From contig JFLX01000106.1 of assembly GCA_000634215.1 (NCBI GenBank), forward strand, positions 62,001 to 126,000: 64,000 nucleotides of DNA, written 5' to 3'. Below are positions 20,308 to 52,654 of this stretch, piece by piece (the stretch's first letter is position 1; every line of letters starts with the position of its first letter). Both the position numbers and the translations under genes were made by a program. This DNA comes from Prochlorococcus sp. scB243_495L20 (GTDB taxonomy: Bacteria; Cyanobacteriota; Cyanobacteriia; PCC-6307; Cyanobiaceae). A model generated the notes under the pieces. The model made no database searches. It saw only the letters and a list, made by a program, of their open reading frames with translations, and was not told the DNA's origin.

Positions 20308-20381
<74 letters not shown>

Positions 20382-25755: not shown

Positions 25756-26114
25756 TTCCTTCTAGTTGCTACAGATATAAGTTTCATAGTATCATCGACT
25801 ATTGGAACAATTTCTAATTCACTATATAAATCAAATATTTTTTTTAATCTTTCAGCCAATGTAGATTCAGGTGATCTATCTATAAATTTAAAATTTGTAT
25901 TTAAGATATCTTTTAGGAGCGTATTAGGTAAAACTCCTCTTATCAAGGATTTTCTTATATCTCCATCAGTAGCAATACCAATTACTTGATTATTATTATT
26001 AATTACCAATGTCCCTCTATTTCCATTCTTTTCAATTTTTAACATTGCATCAGTAATTGATGCATCTGAAACAATGAAAAAATCGTTCAATTCAATTCCT
26101 TTTTTGATTAGCAT
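25752..26114 (-). CDS. Stand-alone CBS-domain pair (PtmE N-terminal-like)
   Basis: A 120-residue protein made of two CBS motifs (ITDAMLKIEKNGNRGTLVIN...GIATDGDIRKSLIRG and LAERLKKIF...EIVPIVDDTMKLISVATR). In legionaminic-acid clusters the related PtmE protein has such a CBS pair followed by a nucleotidyltransferase that activates glucosamine-1-phosphate. Here the frame stops right where that second domain would begin, and no nucleotidyltransferase frame follows. It overlaps the neuC-like gene by 7 bp and the dioxygenase gene by 4 bp. It may be a regulatory subunit or a truncated remnant kept in the operon. Confidence 0.75.
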   Translation of the reverse strand: MLIKKGIELNDFFIVSDASITDAMLKIEKNGNRGTLVINNNNQVIGIATDGDIRKSLIRGVLPNTLLKDILNTNFKFIDRSPESTLAERLKKIFDLYSELEIVPIVDDTMKLISVATRRN

Positions 26115-27250
26115 GTTAAATCTTTTACTATTAATTTTTGCGTTGTTTCATGGTTAATTAAAAGTTGAATTAATTTTTGTGTTGAGTGACCATCTCCATA
26201 GGGTGAATTGCAATTTTTTAATTCATTAATAAATGAAGATCCTAATACCTTCTCAATGGACTTTTTAATACTAATGGCTGAACTATCACAGTCAACCACA
26301 TTTGTTCCTTTATACCTTCCATTTTGTCTTCTTCCTATATTTATACAGGGAACTTGATAAAAAGGTGCTTCAATAATTCCGGAAGAGGAATTTCCAATAA
26401 TAAATTTGCAGTTTTTAAGAAGATAAAGATATTTCTTTCTATCTAGATTTCTAAATCTTCTAATCAAATTTGAACTATAAGATTCAATTTCTTGGATAAT
26501 AGTTTTTGAACCAGCATCAGAATTAGGATAAATAACTATAACTTTTAAATTTAATTTAATAATCTCTTTAAGTGCGTTCTTACATCCTAATTTATTGTCT
26601 ATATAATCTTCTGATACAGGATGGTAAACGAAAAGTATATAATCTTCATTCCCATCTATATTTAATTCTCTAAAAAGATTAAGATCAATAGAACTTTCTA
26701 TTGAGATGAGTTCATCAATCTGAGGAGCGCCTATATTATGTATCCTAAAAGGCTCCTCTCCAAATTTCTCTAACCTAGCTGCAGCATCTTCATTTGCTGC
26801 AAGATGGACATGCGAAAATCTCGCAATAGCATGTCTGCTCATTCCATCGACATGTCCAGATCTTTCTCCAGCTTGAATATGATAAACCGGAATATTTAAA
26901 TGAAATCCAGTTATTGCACTGATCAATTGTTCCCCTCTATCCCCAGCAAGAAGTAATATATCGTAATTCTCATTTTTTAAGATATCAGAAAGGCTTAATC
27001 CAAAAATAAAAAGTGATTTCAACATTCCTGTACTTGTATTTCCATCTAGGGTATTTTCAATCTTATATTTAACAGGGATATTATCTTTTTCAAACTCTTC
27101 AATACTTAAACCATGCTTATCTAACAAATGCATATTTGTAACAAGCACATCACAAATAAGTTTGCTTTGATCAGAAAAAGCATATTTCAAAAAAGGTCTT
27201 ATATAACCATATTCACCTCTTGATCCACTTATAACCAATATTTTTTTCAT
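26108..27250 (-). CDS. neuC: UDP-N-acetylglucosamine 2-epimerase (hydrolysing), NeuC/LegG type
   Basis: A 380-residue GT-B fold enzyme that hydrolyses a UDP-activated 2-acetamido sugar with inversion at C2, giving the free mannosamine-type precursor of sialic or legionaminic acid. Motifs: VISGSRGEYGYIRPFL, LLLAGDRGEQLISA, VYHIQAGERSGHVDGMSRHAI, KFIIGNSSSGIIEAPFYQVPCINIGRRQNGR. The last two are characteristic of hydrolysing rather than non-hydrolysing epimerases. It overlaps neuB by 4 bp. Whether the substrate is UDP-GlcNAc or its 4-amino-6-deoxy derivative is not decidable, but the aminotransferase at the operon head favours the latter. Confidence 0.88.
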   Translation of the reverse strand: MKKILVISGSRGEYGYIRPFLKYAFSDQSKLICDVLVTNMHLLDKHGLSIEEFEKDNIPVKYKIENTLDGNTSTGMLKSLFIFGLSLSDILKNENYDILLLAGDRGEQLISAITGFHLNIPVYHIQAGERSGHVDGMSRHAIARFSHVHLAANEDAAARLEKFGEEPFRIHNIGAPQIDELISIESSIDLNLFRELNIDGNEDYILFVYHPVSEDYIDNKLGCKNALKEIIKLNLKVIVIYPNSDAGSKTIIQEIESYSSNLIRRFRNLDRKKYLYLLKNCKFIIGNSSSGIIEAPFYQVPCINIGRRQNGRYKGTNVVDCDSSAISIKKSIEKVLGSSFINELKNCNSPYGDGHSTQKLIQLLINHETTQKLIVKDLTC

Positions 27251-28275
27251 AAAACCATATCATCATTTAATTTAGTCCCTGCAGGTAAGTTTTTGACAAT
27301 TTTTTTTCCAATATAATCAAAAAAATATTCTGAAGAAATACCCTTACCAGCCCTTAAAGTAGTTAAGTTATTAACTGATAATTTTTGCCCACTTTTTAAA
27401 TCCTTATTAATTACTAAAATTCTTCTAGCCCAAGTTTTAATATCTTTTTCAATTTCAAATACTTTTTCCCTTATTCCCCTACCTTTATAAATTTGTTGAA
27501 TACCATTAACTAAATCTTTCATTTCTTTAAAATCAATCGAAACACTTTGATCTGGACAGGAGATTGTTTTATCTAAAGTTACATGTTTCTCAATAATTGA
27601 GGCACCTAATGTAACAGCAGCTAATGAGGTGTAAATACTAGGCGTATGACATGAGAATCCAATGATTTTATTAGGAAATTTTTCTCTTAAAAGGGATATT
27701 GTATCCAAACAAATATCATTAGGGTCTGGAGGATATTCTGATACGCAATGCAATAAAGCATAATCTGCTTTTTTAGAATTCAGAAAACTCACACTTTTTT
27801 CAATTTCCTCTATTGTACTCATACCGGTTGAGAGAATTAAAGAAATTTTTTCACTGACAAGGTAATCCAAAAGCCTAAAATCTAATAATTCTCCGGAACC
27901 TATCTTTGCGGTATTTATGAGGTTAAACTTTACGAGTTCTTCAGCTGCCTCTTTACAAAATGGGGTGCAGAGATATTCAATTCCAATTTCATCACAATAC
28001 TGCTTTAGAACTATGTGATCTTGAATTTTTAAAGAGCATCTTCCTAAAAAATCATATAAATCTTCATCAAAATTATTTGACATTTTTAAGCCCTTTACCA
28101 TTTCGAAGTCTCTTAAATGATGTTGGAATTTTATAATGTCTGCTCCACATTTTTTTGACTTTTCAATCATTTTTATTGCTACATTCAAATCACCTAAATG
28201 ATTTTCACAAGCTTCAGCAATGACTTTCGGTTTTGAATTATTATCAATCCCTCCTAGGCCATTAAAACTTCTCAT
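27247..28275 (-). CDS. neuB: Sialic/legionaminic acid synthase (NeuB family)
   Basis: A 342-residue phosphoenolpyruvate-condensing synthase, NeuB TIM barrel (about 15-255) plus C-terminal antifreeze-like SAF domain (about 285-340). Seen: VIAEACENHLGDLNVAIKMI, GADIIKFQHH, STGMSTIEEIEKSV, ALLHCVSEYPPDPNDICL, GFSCHTPS and ASIIEKHVTLDKTISCPDQSVS. It condenses PEP with an N-acylmannosamine-type sugar to make a nonulosonic acid. It is distinct from the PseI-type synthase at 48993-50051. Four-bp overlaps on both sides tie it to neuA and neuC. Confidence 0.92.
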   Translation of the reverse strand: MRSFNGLGGIDNNSKPKVIAEACENHLGDLNVAIKMIEKSKKCGADIIKFQHHLRDFEMVKGLKMSNNFDEDLYDFLGRCSLKIQDHIVLKQYCDEIGIEYLCTPFCKEAAEELVKFNLINTAKIGSGELLDFRLLDYLVSEKISLILSTGMSTIEEIEKSVSFLNSKKADYALLHCVSEYPPDPNDICLDTISLLREKFPNKIIGFSCHTPSIYTSLAAVTLGASIIEKHVTLDKTISCPDQSVSIDFKEMKDLVNGIQQIYKGRGIREKVFEIEKDIKTWARRILVINKDLKSGQKLSVNNLTTLRAGKGISSEYFFDYIGKKIVKNLPAGTKLNDDMVL

Positions 28276-28958
28276 TTCTCAAGATTTCTAAATATATTTT
28301 GAGCTAATTCAAATTGATCCTCATAGTCTACATCTATAAATTCTGTCAATGGAATCTTATATATATTATTTAACGAATCTATACAGAAAGGGTTGGATCT
28401 ATTAAACAATCTTGATTTCTTTATTATATAAATTCCACCAGTTTCAAATAAAAATTTATCAGAATTACTATGGTCTAATGTAATTTTATTAATTGTATTT
28501 TTATCAATAGCTACACAGTCATTAATATTAAAAGGAAGATAAGTAAATGAAGCTATTAAATCCACCTTACTTCTTTGAAACTTTTCAATTATTAACTCTA
28601 TAGAATTAGAAGATAAAAGTGGACTAGTAGGTTGCAAAATGGCAATCGAATCTATTTCAAAATTCAAATCTTTTTCTGCTTTTTGAATACAATCTATTAG
28701 AGATTCTTTAGTTGATGAGCTATCTTTAGCAAATTTCTTTTCTCTCTTCCTAAAGTAATCAGTTAACTTTTTACTTTTCATTTTTTCAAGAAAAATATCA
28801 TTATCAGTATCTAATAAAGTAAAAATAATTTTCTTATTTTGTTTGCTTTTCAGGAGTGCAATCTCTGCCATGGAAATATCTTTATAAAAATTTCTAAAAT
28901 TTTTATTTTTTAATCTTTTGCTTCCAGATCTTGCGGGTACATATCCAACTAAGTTCAT
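28272..28958 (-). CDS. neuA: CMP-nonulosonate cytidylyltransferase (NeuA/LegF type)
   Basis: A 228-residue GT-A fold cytidylyltransferase that activates sialic-acid-like sugars with CTP. Motifs: YVPARSGSKRLKNKNFRNF (nucleotide loop), SIAILQPTSPLLSSNSIELI, and C-terminal EFIDVDYEDQFELAQ with the metal-binding aspartates. It overlaps both neighbours by 4 bp. A second, different cytidylyltransferase (PseF type) occurs at 44792-45511, so the island activates two nonulosonic acids. Confidence 0.9.
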   Translation of the reverse strand: MNLVGYVPARSGSKRLKNKNFRNFYKDISMAEIALLKSKQNKKIIFTLLDTDNDIFLEKMKSKKLTDYFRKREKKFAKDSSSTKESLIDCIQKAEKDLNFEIDSIAILQPTSPLLSSNSIELIIEKFQRSKVDLIASFTYLPFNINDCVAIDKNTINKITLDHSNSDKFLFETGGIYIIKKSRLFNRSNPFCIDSLNNIYKIPLTEFIDVDYEDQFELAQNIFRNLEK

Positions 28959-38641: not shown

Positions 38642-39664
38642 ATGAAAGATATAATTTCAGGATCTAGCTTGCTTATAACGGGAGGAACAGGCAGTTTCGG
38701 AAAACATTTTTTAAAAAAAATTTTTTTAAATTATCCAAACATAAAAAGAATTGTAATTTTTAGCAGAGATGAGTTAAAACAGTGGGAGCTTCAGAATTTA
38801 TATCCTCAAGAAAAATATCCTCAGATAAGATTCTTTATGGGCGATATAAGAGATAGAGACAGATTAAAAAGAGCATTAGAAGGGGTTGATATTGTGATTC
38901 ATGCCGCTGCACTCAAGCAAGTGCCTGCTGCAGAATATAATCCAATGGAATGCATTAAAACAAATGTATTAGGAGCAGAAAATTTAATTGAAGCAAGTTT
39001 AGATACTAAAGTAAAAAAAATTATTGCTTTGAGTACAGATAAAGCAGCATCTCCAATTAATTTATATGGTGCTACAAAATTATGCTCAGATAAGTTATTT
39101 ATTTCATCAAACAATATTAAAGGCCCTAGAGATTTAACATTTTCAGTAGTGAGATATGGCAATGTAATGGGATCAAGAGGTTCAGTGATTCCATTTTTTA
39201 TGAAAAATGCACAAAAAGGGGTGCTGCCAATTACACATCCAAATATGACACGATTCAATATATCTCTTGATGAAAGTGTAAATTTGGTATTTTGGGCTAT
39301 TAATGAATCACTAGGAGGAGAAATATTTGTTCCAATAATACCTAGCTATAAAATTCTAGATCTTGCAGAGGCAATTAGTCCAAGCTGCAAAAAACCTGTA
39401 ATTGGGATAAGATCAGGAGAAAAGATTCATGAAGAAATGATTAGCGTATCTGATAGTTATAACACTATTAATTTAGGCAAATATTATGCAATTTTGCCTG
39501 CTGACGGAAAACTATTAAGTAAATATAAAGAGCTAAATATTAATTTCACACCTTTCCCTGAGGGTAAATCTTATAATTCAGGTGAGAATGATAAGTTTCT
39601 AACTGTAAACGAAATGAGACTTTTAATAAGGGAACACATTGATAAAAACTTTATCCCGGAATGA
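38642..39664 (+). CDS. pseB: UDP-N-acetylglucosamine 4,6-dehydratase (inverting), PseB
   Basis: A 340-residue SDR catalysing the first step of pseudaminic acid synthesis: C4 oxidation, 6-dehydration and C5 inversion of UDP-GlcNAc. SLLITGGTGSFGKHFLKKIF, FSRDELKQWE, FFMGDIRDRDRLKRALEGVD, HAAALKQVPAAEYNPMECI, LSTDKAASPINLYGATKL and RYGNVMGSRGSVIPFF are hallmark PseB/FlaA1 sequences. Short, soluble, no TM helices, consistent with PseB. Overlaps pseC by 4 bp (ATGA). Confidence 0.93.
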   Translation: MKDIISGSSLLITGGTGSFGKHFLKKIFLNYPNIKRIVIFSRDELKQWELQNLYPQEKYPQIRFFMGDIRDRDRLKRALEGVDIVIHAAALKQVPAAEYNPMECIKTNVLGAENLIEASLDTKVKKIIALSTDKAASPINLYGATKLCSDKLFISSNNIKGPRDLTFSVVRYGNVMGSRGSVIPFFMKNAQKGVLPITHPNMTRFNISLDESVNLVFWAINESLGGEIFVPIIPSYKILDLAEAISPSCKKPVIGIRSGEKIHEEMISVSDSYNTINLGKYYAILPADGKLLSKYKELNINFTPFPEGKSYNSGENDKFLTVNEMRLLIREHIDKNFIPE

Positions 39665-40839
39665 AGTCTTTAAATAAATTTATTCCTTATGGTAAACAAT
39701 CTATAAGTGAAGAGGATATTGAAAATGTTATAAGCGCTTTAAAAAGTCCACTTATTACTCAAGGACCTCTATGTCAAGAATTTGAATCTAAAATTTCGAA
39801 AAAAATAGGCTCCCAATATGGAGTTGCTGTTAATAGTGCGACAAGTGCTCTTCACATTGCATGTATTGCATTAGGTCTCAAAAAAGGAGATATCCTTTGG
39901 ACAAGTCCAATATCATTCGTTGCCTCTGCGAATTGCGCTCTTTATTGCGGCGCAAAAATAGATTTTGTTGATATAGATCCAAATTCTGGACTTATGTCAA
40001 TTGAAAAATTAAAAGAAAAACTAAGTATAGCTGCATTAAACAACAAACTTCCAAAAATAATTATTCCTGTCCACCTAACGGGAAGTTCATGTAATATGGA
40101 AGAGATTTTTAAGCTATCAAAAAAATATAACTTTAAGATTATTGAAGATGCGAGCCATGCAATAGGTGGCAAGTATAAAGCTCAATATGTAGGGAATTGC
40201 AAATACAGTTCTGTTTGTGTTTTTAGTTTTCATCCAGTGAAAATCATTACCACTGGAGAAGGAGGCTTTGCCTCAACTAACGATAAAATTATTTTTGAGA
40301 AAATGGTGAATTTAAGAAGTCATGGGATTATTAGAAATATAAAAGATTTCAAATATAAAAGTAATGGACCATGGAGTTATGAACAACAAGAATTAGGATT
40401 CAACTATAGATTGACTGAATTACAGGCAGCATTAGGAATAAGTCAATTAAAAAGATTAGATAATTTTGTAATTAAAAGAAACATCTTATTTGAAAGGTAC
40501 AAAAAGCTTATAGAAGATTTACCAATTAAATTATTAGAAATTCCCAATAATGTATATTCATCCGTTCACCTAGCTGTGATTAGATTAGATAACAAAGAAA
40601 AAAGTTTTCACAAGTTTATTTTTGAAAAAATGCAGAGTCATAATATTGGGGTTCAATTACACTATCAACCTATTCATCTTCACCCTTTTTATCAAAATCT
40701 CAATTTTAAGAAAAATGATTTCCCCAATGCTGAACTTTATAGTCAGAATGCGATTAGTATTCCACTATATCCAGATTTAACCGAGGAAGAACAAATATTT
40801 ATAGTTTCTATTTTATCTAAATATCTTCAGCAAAGATAA
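39661..40839 (+). CDS. pseC: UDP-4-amino-4,6-dideoxy-N-acetyl-beta-L-altrosamine transaminase, PseC
   Basis: A 392-residue DegT-family PLP aminotransferase, second step of the pseudaminic pathway. N-terminal FIPYGKQSISEEDIENVISAL, LITQGPLCQEFE, VAVNSATSALHIACIALG, SPISFVASANCALYCGA, IEDASHAIGGKYK, PLP-lysine region SFHPVKIITTGEGGFA and NYRLTELQAALGISQL, then VQLHYQPIHLHPFYQ. All match PseC more closely than other DegT members. Translationally coupled to pseB. Confidence 0.93.
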   Translation: MKSLNKFIPYGKQSISEEDIENVISALKSPLITQGPLCQEFESKISKKIGSQYGVAVNSATSALHIACIALGLKKGDILWTSPISFVASANCALYCGAKIDFVDIDPNSGLMSIEKLKEKLSIAALNNKLPKIIIPVHLTGSSCNMEEIFKLSKKYNFKIIEDASHAIGGKYKAQYVGNCKYSSVCVFSFHPVKIITTGEGGFASTNDKIIFEKMVNLRSHGIIRNIKDFKYKSNGPWSYEQQELGFNYRLTELQAALGISQLKRLDNFVIKRNILFERYKKLIEDLPIKLLEIPNNVYSSVHLAVIRLDNKEKSFHKFIFEKMQSHNIGVQLHYQPIHLHPFYQNLNFKKNDFPNAELYSQNAISIPLYPDLTEEEQIFIVSILSKYLQQR

Positions 40840-44791: not shown

Positions 44792-45511
44792 CTATTTAAG
44801 CTTTTCTTTATTAAGAATTGCGTATTGAATTGTTGCTATTTTCCAGTCTTCCATTGTGTCAATATCAATAACCTCTTCTCTAGATAATATTAAAGGAATC
44901 GAATCTTCGCAAAAAATAATCTCATCTGCCAATGCAAAATCAGCATTCATAAAATAAAATTGTCCAGCATCATGATACATTGTTTCTAAATCTTGAGACC
45001 TTGTTAAAAAATTTGCTGGGTCATTCATTTGAACCCTTCCGTTAGATGTCTTTTTAAAAGCTCTTTGGATTGGGTGAGCATATTCTATACATGTAAAAAG
45101 GCATTTAGCATTTGAAATTTTTAACTTTTCAAAACCTTCTTTTAATCTCTTTACAGAGATAAATGGAGAACATGGATAAATAATGCAAATAATATCCGGT
45201 TTATAATTATTAGAAATAAGCCATCTAGTGAAATCACTAATAACCTTTCCTACAGGAGTAAAGTCATCAGATATTTCTTGAGATCTTAAAAAAGGAACAG
45301 ATGCTCCTGCTTCTCTAGAAATCTTTGCAATTTCCTCTGAATCAGTAGACACGAAAATTTCGTCAAAAATTTGCGAATCTTTTGCTACTTTTATAGGTAT
45401 TGAAATCATTGGGCCGTTAACAAAATTTTTAATATTTTTTTTTGGAATTCTTTTTGAATTTAATCTTGCGGGCAAAATAGCAAATACCTTCTTTTTGAGA
45501 ATATCTTTCAT
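44792..45511 (-). CDS. pseF: CMP-pseudaminic acid cytidylyltransferase
   Basis: A 239-residue cytidylyltransferase activating pseudaminic acid with CTP. N-terminus AILPARLNSKRIPKKNIKNF (nucleotide loop), ISTDSEEIAKISREAGASVPF, CIIYPCSPFISVKRL, CIEYAHPIQRAFKK, DAGQFYFMNADFAL and the metal-binding IDIDTMEDWKIA. The PIQRA and QFYF features are typical of PseF rather than NeuA. It lies alone on the minus strand, separated from pseB/pseC and followed upstream by an aminotransferase relic. Confidence 0.9.
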   Translation of the reverse strand: MKDILKKKVFAILPARLNSKRIPKKNIKNFVNGPMISIPIKVAKDSQIFDEIFVSTDSEEIAKISREAGASVPFLRSQEISDDFTPVGKVISDFTRWLISNNYKPDIICIIYPCSPFISVKRLKEGFEKLKISNAKCLFTCIEYAHPIQRAFKKTSNGRVQMNDPANFLTRSQDLETMYHDAGQFYFMNADFALADEIIFCEDSIPLILSREEVIDIDTMEDWKIATIQYAILNKEKLK

Positions 45512-47932: not shown

Positions 47933-48034
47933 TTAAAACTAGTAATTGAAGCTCATTATGATGATGAAGTTTTGTGATCTGGAGGCACTATATTAAAACA
48001 TATTGATAAAGGAGATGAAGTAAATAAATTATTA
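47933..48034 (+). pseudogene. PIG-L (LmbE-like) deacetylase relic
   Basis: Thirty-odd codons read LKLVIEAHYDDEVL, then a TGA, then SGGTILKHIDKGDEVNKLL. This is the N-terminal HxDDE catalytic region of a PIG-L deacetylase with the glycine after VL replaced by a stop. The open part ends into a decayed pseI fragment with no room for the remaining 190 residues. An intact homolog lies at 51190-51873 in opposite orientation. The preceding 47797-47932 shows nothing recognisable. Confidence 0.75.
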
Positions 48035-48042
48035 TGCTTAAA

Positions 48043-48189
48043 GGAGCTAATGCTATTAAATTACAAACTTATAATGCTTACACAATGACTCTTGATTTTA
48101 GATGAGGCAGCTTTGAAATTAATGATCCAAAATCATTATGGTAGGGAGAATATTATCATAAATTATTTCAAAAAGCTTACCCTCATTGA
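48043..48189 (+). pseudogene. pseI relic, N-terminal segment
   Basis: One frame reads GANAIKLQTYNAYTMTLDFR, stop, GSFEINDPKSLW, stop, GEYYHKLFQKAYPH, stop. This follows the PseI/NeuB barrel segment at about residues 42-95 of the intact PseI at 48993-50051 (GAHAVKIQTYEPQTMTI, GGLWDGYTLFDLYSEAQTPFAW). Three in-frame stops make it dead. The matching continuation (ELHETIFKKA and on) is found 4 kb away at 52238-52510 on the same strand. Confidence 0.8.
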
Positions 48190-48194
48190 GGGTA
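48178..48194. repeat. 17-nt palindrome at the pseI break
   Basis: TACCCTCATTGAGGGTA, 8-bp perfect arms around a single T, lies exactly where the left pseI relic ends. It may be a scar of the rearrangement or a coincidental hairpin; roughly one such arm pair is expected by chance in a window this size. The following 48195-48345 has no gene except the leader of the next ORF. Confidence 0.4.
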
Positions 48195-48345
48195 GATATA
48201 TTTAGTACGCCTTCTTTTTAGAGTTATTGCTCTCTTTTTGCATATGAATAAAAATATTTTTCTAGAGAGTATCAACTATCTTCTTGTTGCACACAAAAGT
48301 ATCATCTTCTGTGTTTAGAATGATAGATGTTAACAAGCTTGGAAA

Positions 48346-48996
48346 GTGAAAAGAGCGAGAGTTTCTATTCTTTCAGATAAGACAGATAGCTGGATACAGC
48401 CTTTCTGTAGGTCTTTAGCAGCTCAATTAATTGATCGTGGATTTGTTGTTGATATCTATAAAGATTGGAAGGATCTTGAAAAAGGAGATATGTTATTTAT
48501 TCTTGGATGCGAAAAGATTTTGCCAAAAGATGTTCTTTCGCTGCATAAGAACAATCTAGTCGTCCATGAAAGCGATTTACCAAGAGGGAAAGGATGGTCG
48601 CCTTTGAGTTGGCAAATAATTGAAGGGATAAATTTAATTCCAATTACTATATTTGAGGCTTCAAGCAAAGTAGATTCAGGAGTTATATATTATCAAGACT
48701 TTATTTGTCTGGAGGGTCACGAACTGATTGAAGAGATAAGGAATTTGCAAGGTCAATATACCATAAACCTTTGTCTTAGATTTGCAGATGAATATCCAAA
48801 TGTCGTAGGCTCACCCCAGACTGGTCAAGAAACATTCTATGCCAGAAGAAGGCCAAGTGACTCAGAAATAAATCCTCAACAAACTATCGATGCTATATTT
48901 AATCAATTAAGAATAGCTGATAACGAAAAGTATCCTGCATTTTTCTATAAAAACGGTGTTAAGTACATCATAAAAATCTACAAAGAATCCGTTTAA
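48346..48996 (+). CDS. Formyltransferase-like protein of nonulosonate loci
   Basis: A 216-residue protein resembling the N-terminal domain of methionyl-tRNA/sugar formyltransferases, about residues 5-150: FILGCEKILPKDVLS, VVHESDLPRGKGWSPLSWQI (His about 74) and SKVDSGVIYYQDF (Asp about 110). In classical formyltransferases an Asn stands two residues before the His; here it is Val. This subtype is found near pseI genes and is presumed to formylate an amino sugar. GTG start at 48346 follows GGAAA. Its stop overlaps the convergent pseI by 4 bp. More G+C-rich than its flanks. Confidence 0.72.
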   Translation: MKRARVSILSDKTDSWIQPFCRSLAAQLIDRGFVVDIYKDWKDLEKGDMLFILGCEKILPKDVLSLHKNNLVVHESDLPRGKGWSPLSWQIIEGINLIPITIFEASSKVDSGVIYYQDFICLEGHELIEEIRNLQGQYTINLCLRFADEYPNVVGSPQTGQETFYARRRPSDSEINPQQTIDAIFNQLRIADNEKYPAFFYKNGVKYIIKIYKESV

Positions 48997-50051
48997 TTCT
49001 TCTCAAGAGATAACCCTAAAATTGCATCCGCAGTTACTCTATCTCCTCTCTTTACATCATGACTAACTCTTAAGCCTATAATTTTATCTTGATATTTAGG
49101 GAGCAATCCATATCCAGGTCGGATTCTTCTAATAGAATTTTTAGTAATTTTGTCACCTGCTTTATGATCTTTTACAAAATAGAGGGATCGTCTAAATATT
49201 AAACTTGAATTCTCACAGCTTTGCCTATTAAGTTCGCCTGTTCCTAAACTTTTCCAAGTCTGACTTGTTTCAAGTACTAGTTTTTTTAACTCTGCAGGAT
49301 CAATCGAAAATGCCGAATCATGTCCCTTGTCACTCTTGTCTAATGTGAAATGTTTTTCTATCGCAGTAGCTCCAATAGCTACTGAAGATATAGCAGCTAT
49401 GTTTCCTAAAGTATGATCTGATAACCCTACTTCAACGTCAAATTTTTGCTGAAGGCTTTGAATAGATTTGAGATTACTTTTTTCTATCGGAGCTGGATAA
49501 GAACTTATGCAGTGAAAAAGGAGTATTTCCTTAGCGCCGTTTTTTCTCGCACAGTTGACTGCTTCTGATATCTCATCATATGTAGCCATGCCAGTTGACA
49601 TAAGAAGAGGTTTCCCTGTCGCAGCAACTTTCTGGATGAGTTTCACATCTGTGAGTTCAAAAGAAGCGATCTTATACGCTGGTGCATCTAAACTCTCAAG
49701 TAAATCAACAGCTGTTTCATCGAATGGAGTAGAGAATAGAGTAATTCCAATTTTTTTTGCATGATCGAATAGTTCTTGGTGCCAAGCAAAAGGAGTTTGT
49801 GCTTCAGAATATAGATCAAATAATGTATATCCATCCCATAATCCGCCTTTAACTAAGAAATCATCCTTTGTGCTATTAATTGTCATAGTTTGAGGCTCAT
49901 ATGTCTGAATTTTTACAGCATGTGCTCCGGCACTTTTAGCTGCACTGATACATTTCTTGGCTTTTGCTATATTTCCGTTATGATTCGCCGATACTTCCGC
50001 AATAATATAGGGAGGATTAGAAGAATTGATACATCGTCCTAAGATATACAT
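48993..50051 (-). CDS. pseI: Pseudaminic acid synthase
   Basis: A 352-residue PEP-condensing synthase: NeuB TIM barrel (about 10-260) plus SAF domain (about 285-350). Landmarks: YIIAEVSANHNGNIAKAKKC, AGAHAVKIQTYEPQTMT, GGLWDGYTLFDLYSEAQTPF, TLFSTPFDETAVDLLE, YKIASFELTDVKLIQK, STGMATYDEI, LLFHCISSYPAP, GLSDHTLGN, IEKHFTLDKSDKGHDSAFS, and RPGYGLLPKYQ. GGLWxG..L..LY.EAxTP is PseI-specific versus NeuB. It is third in the minus operon PIG-L, formyltransferase/GNAT, pseI (8-bp gap). It coexists with a dead pseI copy flanking the cassette. Confidence 0.93.
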   Translation of the reverse strand: MYILGRCINSSNPPYIIAEVSANHNGNIAKAKKCISAAKSAGAHAVKIQTYEPQTMTINSTKDDFLVKGGLWDGYTLFDLYSEAQTPFAWHQELFDHAKKIGITLFSTPFDETAVDLLESLDAPAYKIASFELTDVKLIQKVAATGKPLLMSTGMATYDEISEAVNCARKNGAKEILLFHCISSYPAPIEKSNLKSIQSLQQKFDVEVGLSDHTLGNIAAISSVAIGATAIEKHFTLDKSDKGHDSAFSIDPAELKKLVLETSQTWKSLGTGELNRQSCENSSLIFRRSLYFVKDHKAGDKITKNSIRRIRPGYGLLPKYQDKIIGLRVSHDVKRGDRVTADAILGLSLEKN

Positions 50052-50059
50052 TCTTTTAG

Positions 50060-51193
50060 CTAGTTGATCAAATAAGTTACCTGTATCTTACTACAGTCAC
50101 AGGCTTCAAGCGATTGAATTTTTTCTCTATGATTGTGTGATACATTTATGTGAAACTTTGCTGTTCGCACTGACTTAATTGGAGGTAATGGATTATGCCT
50201 GTTCTTGATGTATTCAATTACAGCCTTGATATTGAGCGGATTTGGACTTACTAGATTAACTCCAACGCAATTCGTTTCCATAATGTAAACATCCCCAATC
50301 GCTTCGCCGTCTTTATCCCTTACTATGTACCAATAAAGGTATGGGTGAGATGAAACGAATTTGCGATGCTCTTCGAAAGTCGGTGTTGTTACATTGCTTA
50401 TATTATGAATACGTTTCTTAAGTAAATTATAAAGTTCATTATGATGTTCGTCGGATTGCTGTACTGCTTCAAAGTTTAAATTTTCAATTTTAATTGCCTT
50501 TGACTGGATTAGTCTTTCTTTATCTTTAAATTTAACTTCTGCAGTTATATACTCGCCTTCTTTACGGGCATTGCTGAACTCTGCCAAGGTGCCCTGAAGG
50601 TTCAAATATGCCCTTGGATAGTCCAATCCATCGGTCATCCTAATAAGGTCGTATATTTGCATCTTATTCGAAGTATTTCTTAGATCATTTACCTCTTTTG
50701 ATAAACGTTTGAAAATAATAGATTTTCCAACTTGTTCTTTGGGAGTAATGCTGGGAGTTGTTTTTACTATTTTCTCAATCATATTCTTAATTGCTTCAGC
50801 TATTCTCCCAAATATTTCTACTATATTGCCTTCAAGGCTTATTGTTTCGGAGCAATATATTGGACCTGCATCCACTTTCTTTATCATTTTTATTGCACAA
50901 ACAGGACTAGATTTAAATCCTTTCAAAATTAAATTTTGTATTGGACTTCCACCTCTGCCATATGGAAGTGGAGCAGTATGAAAAACTATGCAGTTGAAGC
51001 TATTGTATATTTCTTCTGGGACTATCCAGCTCCAATGAGCAAAGAAAATATAAGATGGATTGATCGATTTTAGATATTTGTAATCCAGCTCTTCTCTTGT
51101 TGTTAAGATACTCCAGCCATTGATGACGGCTTCCTGTCTACTTAAACTTTTAACAAACCATCCTTTGGAGTCTGCGATAATAATCTTTGTCAT
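50060..51193 (-). CDS. Formyltransferase-like / GNAT-like fusion protein
   Basis: A 377-residue two-part protein. Residues 1-130 are formyltransferase-like (YIFFAHWSWIVPEEIY, FHTAPLPYGRGGSPIQN with His 72, KVDAGPIYCSE with Asp 108), and 130-245 resemble the C-terminal formyltransferase beta-domain (LIRMTDGLDYPRAYLNLQG). Residues about 250-377 look like a GNAT fold: NISNVTTPTFEEHRKFV, YWYIVRDKDGEAIGDVYI, VEYIKNRHNPLP. The second part could take the role of PseH N-acetyltransferase. The Asn of the formyltransferase NxH is Val70. Overlaps PIG-L by 4 bp; 8 bp from pseI. Activity is inferred. Confidence 0.75.
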   Translation of the reverse strand: MTKIIIADSKGWFVKSLSRQEAVINGWSILTTREELDYKYLKSINPSYIFFAHWSWIVPEEIYNSFNCIVFHTAPLPYGRGGSPIQNLILKGFKSSPVCAIKMIKKVDAGPIYCSETISLEGNIVEIFGRIAEAIKNMIEKIVKTTPSITPKEQVGKSIIFKRLSKEVNDLRNTSNKMQIYDLIRMTDGLDYPRAYLNLQGTLAEFSNARKEGEYITAEVKFKDKERLIQSKAIKIENLNFEAVQQSDEHHNELYNLLKKRIHNISNVTTPTFEEHRKFVSSHPYLYWYIVRDKDGEAIGDVYIMETNCVGVNLVSPNPLNIKAVIEYIKNRHNPLPPIKSVRTAKFHINVSHNHREKIQSLEACDCSKIQVTYLIN

Positions 51194-51873
51194 CTCTCAA
51201 TTTTTCTAATAATCTCAAAGCTTTCCGCCAATTTAACACCACATTGATTACCTCTTAGCCTTGCTAAATTCTCTAAACCTTCTAAGGATCTTGCATGCGG
51301 AGATTCTCTCATCTCCTGAGAATAACAATTTAGTGCCTTCAACTTCTTATGCCAAGTTCTTGTTATGTCAACGTATAGGTTTGGCTGAAAAAATCCTGTT
51401 GTTGATCTGTGACCGTAATCTGTAGAAGATGGAACTTCAAAGGCTCTTATTTCTTCATAAATTTCCGAAGGTTGTGGGCGAAAAGCTGTTAATACTGCTT
51501 TGCAGGTGATCTGATGATCAATATTTAAATCTGCATGAGAGTGTGTGTAAATAATATTTGGATTAACTAATCTTTTAGCTACTTCTATCTTTTTCACAAT
51601 TTCTAATATACTTATTTTATCCATAGAATTATCAGGAAAATCTCCTCCAGGAAGCCATTCAAAATTAAGCTCCATTGCTGCTTCTCTCGCTGCATTCAAT
51701 CTCTCTACATCAGCTCCATTATAATTTAGATCTCTTGAACCAACTCCATCTGTCATAGATATGGCAAATACTTTGTCTCCCGACTCTACATGTCTTACTA
51801 TTGACCCACCAAGACCCAAGGTTTCGTCATCAGAGTGGGACACTACTATTAGAATTACTTTTTTATGATTCAT
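51190..51873 (-). CDS. PIG-L family deacetylase
   Basis: A 227-residue LmbE-like zinc hydrolase. The N-terminal VVSHSDDETLGLGGSIVRHV holds the HxDDE metal/catalytic site (His13, Asp15, Asp16), and YTHSHADLNIDHQITCKAVL supplies the second metal motif. These enzymes remove N-acetyl groups from amino sugars such as GlcNAc derivatives. First gene of the minus operon with the formyltransferase/GNAT fusion and pseI; deacetylation followed by re-acylation with formyl or acetyl would be a coherent scheme. A dead copy of a related gene sits at 47933-48034. Confidence 0.9.
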   Translation of the reverse strand: MNHKKVILIVVSHSDDETLGLGGSIVRHVESGDKVFAISMTDGVGSRDLNYNGADVERLNAAREAAMELNFEWLPGGDFPDNSMDKISILEIVKKIEVAKRLVNPNIIYTHSHADLNIDHQITCKAVLTAFRPQPSEIYEEIRAFEVPSSTDYGHRSTTGFFQPNLYVDITRTWHKKLKALNCYSQEMRESPHARSLEGLENLARLRGNQCGVKLAESFEIIRKIER

Positions 51874-52237
51874 AGGCTAGTTTCTTTCAATAATATAATG
51901 TGAATTTTTTTCTAAAAGGAAAAATAGAGCTGATCTTAAATGAGTAAAAAAAATAAAACCACTTAAGATTTTTTTATTTTCTACATAAAGAATAGAGTCT
52001 TCATATAGATATATTTATTTTCCCTCATTAATTAAAGTTGTGCACTTATTTTATCTTTTTAGTGTATGTTTTCTCTACAAATCAGTCTTAGATTAAGGTT
52101 TAAACTGAAGAATTTGGTTATAGTTACATCACAAATATTTAACAAATAGAATATTCGTGTTACTTCGTGAAAAAATCCTATTTTCACTAATGGATATGGT
52201 CGATTCAAACATCCTATTTTTGTTTGGTAGTACTGAT
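51874..52237. other. Gene-free right flank of the cassette
   Basis: About 360 bp upstream of the PIG-L gene with no frame of interest on either strand. It should hold the promoter of the minus-strand PIG-L operon. The last 45 bases run, with one frame (ATGGATATGGTCGATTC onward), into the second pseI relic, but I do not recognise that text. Confidence 0.5.
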
Positions 52238-52510
52238 TAGGAATTACATGAAACTATTTTCAAAAAGGCGAGAGATATTGAGATAATTTATTTTATTTCT
52301 CCTTTTGATGAATCCTTTTTTGAATTTTTAGATGGGCTGAATAAACCACTAATTAAAATTGCGAGTTTTGAAAACAATCATATTCCTTTAATAAAAAAAG
52401 CATCAAGTAAATTGAAGCCAATAATTATTTACAAAGGTGTAGCTACGGTTGCTGTAGTTTCTAAAGATATAAAAAAGGTGATAAATTTACAAAAAAATTC
52501 GATTAGTTAG
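52238..52510 (+). pseudogene. pseI relic, continuation segment
   Basis: After a TAG in place of the expected Trp codon the frame reads ELHETIFKKARDIEIIYF, SPFDESFFEFLDGL, KPLIKIASFENNHIPLIKKA, KPIIIYKGVATVAVVSKD to a TAG at 52508. It corresponds to about residues 97-185 of PseI (WHQELFDHAKKIGITLF, STPFDETAVDLLESL, YKIASFELTDVKLI, KPLLMSTGMATYDEI). It directly continues the fragment at 48043-48189. The C-terminal half is absent; 52511-52654 contains no identifiable gene. Confidence 0.82.
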
Positions 52511-52654
52511 AATTGGAGACTTTCACTTACTGCATTCTATGAATACATTATCTAAAGTAATTCAAAAAAGAATAACTCTAAATGAACACCATTACAAATA
52601 AAAGAGATTTTTAATTAAATTTCTTAATTAAAATCTTATTAATTAAAAATGAAT

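Follow-up and report, generated by a model that had tools for sequence, protein, structure and literature searches.

A probable guaA-type unit within a decayed pseI gene of a Prochlorococcus surface-sugar island

Background

As far as the available parts of the reports describe them, three systems resemble the locus considered here most closely. GIsul2 is a guaA genomic island of Shigella and relatives with the core GAGTGGGA at the guaA 3' end; its integrase mobilises a CR2-sul2 unit lying between two of its attachment (att) sites, and the system also occurs on plasmids at GGGA, which is regarded as a secondary site, and integrates rarely at TGGG (PMC9376610). ICERspD18B is a conjugative guaA element (an integrative and conjugative element) of Rheinheimera that occupies the guaA 3' end and has the direct repeat ACAATNGAGTGGGAATNNTT (PMC7775301), and tycheposons are cargo-bearing elements of Prochlorococcus with a tyrosine recombinase, bordered by tRNA genes (PMC10872708). 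Here we analyse a stretch of 64,000 nucleotides (the window; G000:C106:62001-126000) from Prochlorococcus sp. scB243_495L20, in which a decayed pseI gene is split by a cassette that probably belongs to a family of guaA elements. The genome (G000; G, C and L numbers are our handles for genomes, contigs and loci) is a 1.57-Mb draft in 143 contigs.

Surface-sugar islands shape the recognition of Prochlorococcus by phages and grazers. The exchange of surface-polysaccharide genes involves swapped nonulosonic acid modules, islands of low G+C content and gene relics, and the usual explanation for it is homologous exchange within the flanking sequences.

Results

The split pseI gene

Two plus-strand fragments are consecutive parts of one decayed PseI, and an insert of approximately 4.04 kbp with four intact genes lies between them. 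The features that define the split and the right end of the insert are as follows.

48043-48195, plus strand: left-hand part of the pseI relic, corresponding by eye to about residues 42 to 90 of the live PseI
52030-52236, plus strand: right arm of the insert (homologue: right end of the guaA element in G026)
52238-52244, plus strand: right att core copy, TAGGAAT (TGGGAAT in pseI, TGGGAGT in guaA), located by two overlapping alignments
52238-52507, plus strand: right-hand part of the pseI relic, corresponding by eye to about residues 88 to 177 of the live PseI

The left fragment reads GANAIKLQTY...KLFQKAYPH in the frame of 48043, with in-frame stops at 48103, 48142, 48187 and 48193; past 48184 its homology comes from a codon-by-codon reading only. 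The right fragment reads ELHETIFKKA...NSIS in the frame of 52241, and its only stops are at 52238, in the place of a tryptophan codon immediately 5' of ELHE, and at 52508. The original prediction, which was made from the letters alone, had placed in-frame stops in both fragments; this holds for the left one, with four, and is marginal for the right one, where stops occur only at the junction codon and the end.

Joining the two halves, with X at the stops, gave 135 columns aligned with PseI, in which the relic shows 50% identity to the protein of G166, 49% to that of G119 and 35% to the live PseI encoded within the insert. At the DNA level, the left fragment can be aligned with the G166 pseI gene as far as 48184, with 71% identity (E 1e-19). 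The match of the right fragment is to the G119 pseI gene and starts at 52237 (208 bp, 67% identity, E 4e-28). Since the matches end and resume at these positions, the fragments meet within a few codons, at T-P-W-E-W-H. Phylogenetic analysis covered 24 proteins, namely the products of 21 PseI loci of other genomes (L004-L024, best matches), the live PseI, the relic and a NeuB-like protein of the window. The relic groups with G119 and G166 at a support of 99/95, and the live PseI falls in another group; the relic-G119 pair alone has a support of 89/30, and the relic branch is long (1.31), with 38% of the relic columns filled. The joined alignment, the shared clade and the DNA matches meeting at TPWEWH thus bear out the earlier claim that both fragments derive from one PseI, and the 35% identity and the different group in the tree agree with the claim that the relic is not a copy of the live gene.

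The right junction

A search of 200 genus genomes with the DNA of 51874-52654 gave matches in 70 of them at E 1e-3, nearly all short and of low significance; the sole strong non-self match was in G026, followed by the pseI genes of G119, G050 and G166. The stretch 52030-52242 is 79% identical over 213 bp to G026:C5:54311-54524 (E 7.6e-46), and this match continues through the core. When nine arms were compared pairwise with the right arm, z was 72.7 for G026 and 11.8 for G117. The element-arm alignment (to 52242) and the G119 pseI alignment (from 52237) overlap exactly on the core. The TPWEWH codons of G119 are ACACCTTGGGAATGGCAT, and the junction reads as the arm GGTAGTACTGA and then T TAG GAA TTA CAT GAA, that is, the same codons with one W changed to a stop and the other W to L. 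The right side of the junction is firm, since the core is shared by these two separate alignments.

The heptamer TGGGAAT is present once in the 1056-bp pseI gene of G119, both strands counted, and this single occurrence is at the break. It also occurs once in the pseI genes of G161 and G146, and that of G166 has TGGGATT there. The orientation matches that of guaA sites, with the right arm, the core and the remainder of the site following one another on the coding strand.

guaA elements and tandem arrays

The G026 element starts at guaA (core at L088:17971), which is followed by a tyrosine integrase gene (PF00589; L088:18189-19664). The stretch homologous to our right arm ends the element, a serine resolvase lies 70 bp further in, and beyond the arm come the 3' end of guaA and the genes that follow it. 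The gene of 528 amino acids at the site is GMP synthase by model (799 bits in G000 and 796 in G026, against 400). A G026 query across the site matched 79 of 266 genomes at E 1e-4 (our genome and G026 included), mostly in the guaA part only. The core read from guaA sites is ATTGAGTGGGAGTAA, with few changes, and includes TGGGAGT; the pattern AYWGARTGGGARTRR was found in 224 of the 266 genomes and its reversed control, by our count, in 25.

At E 1e-20, five of the 266 genomes yielded an integrase of the family, in every case lying downstream of the guaA core at a distance of 0.2 to 1.0 kb. The serine recombinase of G026 was also considered as the integrase and dropped: the tyrosine integrase adjoins guaA in each of its five genomes, and the serine recombinase is present in five of the 266, with only G026 and G009 common to both lists. 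The G009 integrase resembled nine Thermus phage records (24%), and the G026 integrase had no match among the viral contigs; neither did the exact arm pattern.

In G009 (L089, C17), G095 (L131, C1) and G228 (L132, C13), the integrase-bearing element is followed by more cores, 0.8 to 2.3 kb apart. These array units enclose HNH, protease and methyltransferase genes (Pfam), TPR proteins (below-cut-off matches) and others, with no integrase-like open reading frame among those listed (above 80-90 amino acids). Among the matches listed, 34 of the 76 tabulated genomes have at least two same-strand cores within 10 kb, and seven of the 51 core-to-core intervals measure 139-148 bp, the other 44 being 0.7-8.3 kb long. 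The interval table holds one same-strand locus per genome, guaA presence not being confirmed site by site; off-locus rows and the genomes G204, G173, G012, G122 and G100 were left out. The mini-units of 139-148 bp recur across genomes and are too short for genes, and G000 itself has one directly after its own guaA (C1:226260-226400, within L109:2761-2915 = G000:C1:226260-226414).

Genes of the cassette

The four genes between the relic halves, predicted to be intact and to include an opposite-strand pseI, were recovered as such by Pfam and TIGR models.

48346-48996, plus strand: formyltransferase (FT1), live (PF00551; 41% identity to a formyltransferase gene of G101)
48993-50051, minus strand: pseI, live, of a clade other than the relic (TIGR03586, 482 bits against a cut-off of 340; PseI tree)
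50060-51193, minus strand: formyltransferase with an extra C-terminal domain at residues about 237-377 (PF00551/PF21553)
51190-51873, minus strand: PIG-L family deacetylase, live (PF02585)

The G+C contents of these genes are 35.0-36.4%, compared with 22.3-31.4% in the other 17 genes tabulated (37.4 to 63.8 kb), so that the composition check across the region marks the cassette as distinct. The live PseI scores over the cut-off of the equivalog model and is predicted to be a pseudaminic acid synthase. It carries TPFAWH where the relic type has TPWEWH, and the att core is absent from its gene; therefore, the live pseI would not be a target for insertion, although this may be due to chance. A search of G000 with the live PseI found only itself, the NeuB-like protein (31%) and the relic, and one scan of genome contigs for a donor, with the live PseI as query, found six distant loci with 34-48% identity. 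The cassette PIG-L had one match among viral contigs (42%), encoded on the 104-kb viral contig L125 (IMGVR_UViG_3300030329_005959).

In G101, G059 and G113 the gene order is PIG-L, formyltransferase, extra-domain gene and PseI; in G101 a further formyltransferase stands among them, and PseB, PseC and PseF follow. The extra C-terminal domain of 50060-51193 is thus a separate neighbouring gene in these three genomes. Its sequence had no NCBIfam match at E 0.1 and no GNAT match in Pfam at E 0.01, and its GNAT/PseH-like look, judged by eye, is supported by no model.

Resident genes of the island

Outside the cassette, the island contains resident sugar genes and a second relic.

38642-40839, plus strand: resident pseB and pseC, intact (TIGR03589 and TIGR03588 over cut-off)
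44792-45511, minus strand: resident pseF, intact (TIGR03584 over cut-off)
47945-48022, plus strand: PIG-L deacetylase relic (IEAHYDDEVL*SGGTILKHIDKGDEVN), with one in-frame stop and in a frame different from that of the pseI relic

No PseG over the cut-off was found in the G000 genome, where two weak matches scored 31.4 and 20.4 bits against 153.55. The DNA of the PIG-L relic matches within PIG-L genes of G049 (E 1.4e-7), G059 (3.5e-5) and G113 (5.8e-5), matches that stood among many chance-level matches of a longer query. A shared origin of the relic PIG-L and the relic PseI is unconfirmed: no PIG-L stands beside PseI at the examined loci of G119, G166, G146 and G161, a check limited in G166 by a contig that ends soon after pseI. 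Neither the PIG-L relic nor the mobile-element end at 52030-52242 figured in the original prediction. A second nonulosonic-acid-like set is located at 26108-28958 of the window, with NeuC (TIGR03568 over cut-off) and a NeuB-like synthase and a cytidylyltransferase, both below their cut-offs.

Discussion

Proposed insertion of a guaA-type unit

We consider that the block 48187-52244 is probably a non-autonomous guaA-type unit inserted in pseI at a guaA-like secondary site. We favour this reading because the right arm resembles the end of the G026 element, overlaps pseI on the core and has the guaA-like orientation; because TGGGAAT is unique in the G119 gene and lies at the break; because both fragments share one clade, which is not that of the live gene; because core-bounded units without a listed integrase-like open reading frame follow the integrase element in G009, G095 and G228; and because a precedent, GIsul2/CR2-sul2, has been published (PMC9376610).

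The block would then be a cargo unit of an integrative-element family that stands, singly or in tandem, at the guaA 3' end. A tyrosine integrase, presumably supplied in trans or since lost, would have acted on the unit, recombining its att core (TGGGAGT) with the W-E-W codons of TPWEWH in a resident gene resembling the pseI of G119 and G166 (TGGGAAT in G119). The insertion would have cut the resident pseI at that point and brought in four genes, for a PIG-L protein, two formyltransferases (one of them with two domains) and a PseI unlike the resident one. With the resident PseB, PseC and PseF, the cassette could allow a sugar of the pseudaminic type to be made again, differently decorated.

The left end of the block is proposed to comprise two features.

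48187-48193, plus strand: proposed left att core copy, TGAGGGT (TGGGAAT in G119), a tentative reading against G119
48196-48345, plus strand: putative left arm, with no recognisable likeness to known left arms

The left junction reads TAC CCT CAT TGA GGG TAG against TAT ACA CCT TGG GAA TGG in G119. The left core fits in frame and position and might represent the second core, although it is too decayed to prove this.

Several results weigh against the insertion of a guaA-type unit. The left core agrees with TGGGAAT at only four of seven positions, and BLAST homology to pseI stops two bases before it (48184). The 150 bp adjoining the left fragment are unlike seven left arms in pairwise comparison (largest z 2.1), and a profile of 21 left arms has no match at the left end, its best match in 47.8-52.7 kb being 52104-52140 (E 0.84), inside the right arm; the known left arms vary widely among themselves. 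The right arm has no likeness to the other seven of the nine arms compared (z -1.0 to 1.2). A core-plus-arm profile built without G026 has its best match at the site (52202-52238) with only E 0.39, and a longer right-arm profile built without G026 has its best match elsewhere than the site. Queries with the right flank and the G026 site found no second such arm away from guaA in the 266 genus genomes.

The machinery and the empty site are likewise missing from what was searched. Searches of G000 detected neither an integrase (E 1e-20) nor a resolvase (E 1e-10) of the family, and a search of 46.0-54.5 kb for remnants of ten element proteins gave a single match, at E 0.94; the insert lies in pseI on contig C106, and guaA of G000 is on C1, so that the insert is not at guaA. 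The search for a strain with an intact, uninterrupted pseI, which the original prediction had proposed as a check, produced no syntenic locus: the right flank matched only G026, G119 and G050 besides itself among the 266 genus genomes (E 1e-8), none of them syntenic, and the left flank matched 10 of 60 relatives (our genome and nine partial matches with 64-76% identity), again without synteny.

One site-specific insertion of an integrase-less unit is the simplest account of these data. Its main rival is a history of two events: a guaA-type mini-unit would have entered pseI first, at the core, and a different route would later have brought the cassette in between this mini-unit and the left fragment. 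Mini-units of 139-148 bp do exist, as the seven intervals tabulated among the matches listed show, and the right arm is well matched whereas the left end is not. However, the left break is within a few codons of the right break, as a single insertion predicts, and with 44 of the 51 intervals at 0.7-8.3 kb among the matches listed, a 4-kb unit is of the usual size. We therefore regard two events as unlikely, though still worth keeping in mind.

It is less likely again that recombination between sugar genes, homologous or illegitimate, placed the cassette in the relic, the element arm being a bystander. The lack of a syntenic right flank in the 266 genus genomes suggests that the island turns over fast, and PIG-L and PseI sequences are found in relic and cassette alike. 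Nevertheless, the end of the arm coincides exactly with the break in pseI, almost nothing is lost between the fragments, and homologous exchange would not leave pseI resuming on the far side. An assembly artefact joining unrelated stretches within the island, conceivable in a draft of 143 contigs, is highly improbable, because both junctions are inside one 159-kb contig, the pseI halves belong to one clade and meet at one motif, and the right junction bears a biological signature.

The original prediction had read the locus as one surface-sugar module displacing another. A PseI split by a distinct live cassette with a non-orthologous pseI is indeed what is found, and the displacement as a whole is only partly supported: the cassette may have disabled a working gene or entered one that was already dead. 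In a wider and much more tentative view, Prochlorococcus might possess an integron-like guaA cassette system, in which an integrase collects tandem units with 15-bp cores, and in which the units dock at guaA-like heptamers elsewhere, such as the WEW codons of pseI, and supply surface-sugar islands with modules that replace the genes they break.

The way in which single modules are exchanged can seldom be seen. In the present locus, the boundary of one exchange is still legible and points to the machinery likely to be responsible. This boundary predicts other insertions at TGGGA(A/G)T, for example in WEW codons, and ties surface-sugar islands to the tandem guaA cassette arrays.

Comparison with known systems

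Our literature searches found no report of Prochlorococcus guaA islands, although the tycheposon paper or the guaA-island survey of Song et al. 2012 may contain a description of the arrays. In the part of its report that is available, GIsul2/CR2-sul2 resembles the present case in its guaA target, in an att-bounded unit moved by the island integrase, and in off-target insertion at TGGG or GGGA (PMC9376610). GIsul2 differs in that its cargo is resistance rather than surface sugars and in that it is not in pseI. The ICERspD18B repeat, ACAATNGAGTGGGAATNNTT, is close to the Prochlorococcus core, and the accessible portion of its description mentions no off-target unit (PMC7775301). Tycheposons, as partly available to us (PMC10872708), resemble the guaA elements in genus, tyrosine recombinase and cargo, whereas the guaA elements border guaA instead of tRNA genes. 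The unit in the window has no border tRNA, the tRNAs of the window being only at 20308 and 60910, and the tyrosine recombinase, present in related guaA elements, is absent from it. In contrast to the usual exchange of surface-polysaccharide genes, the end of a site-specific element marks one boundary here. Both guaA islands and the exchange of gene modules are known, and what appears to be new is the presence in pseI of a guaA-type unit bringing its own replacement for that gene.

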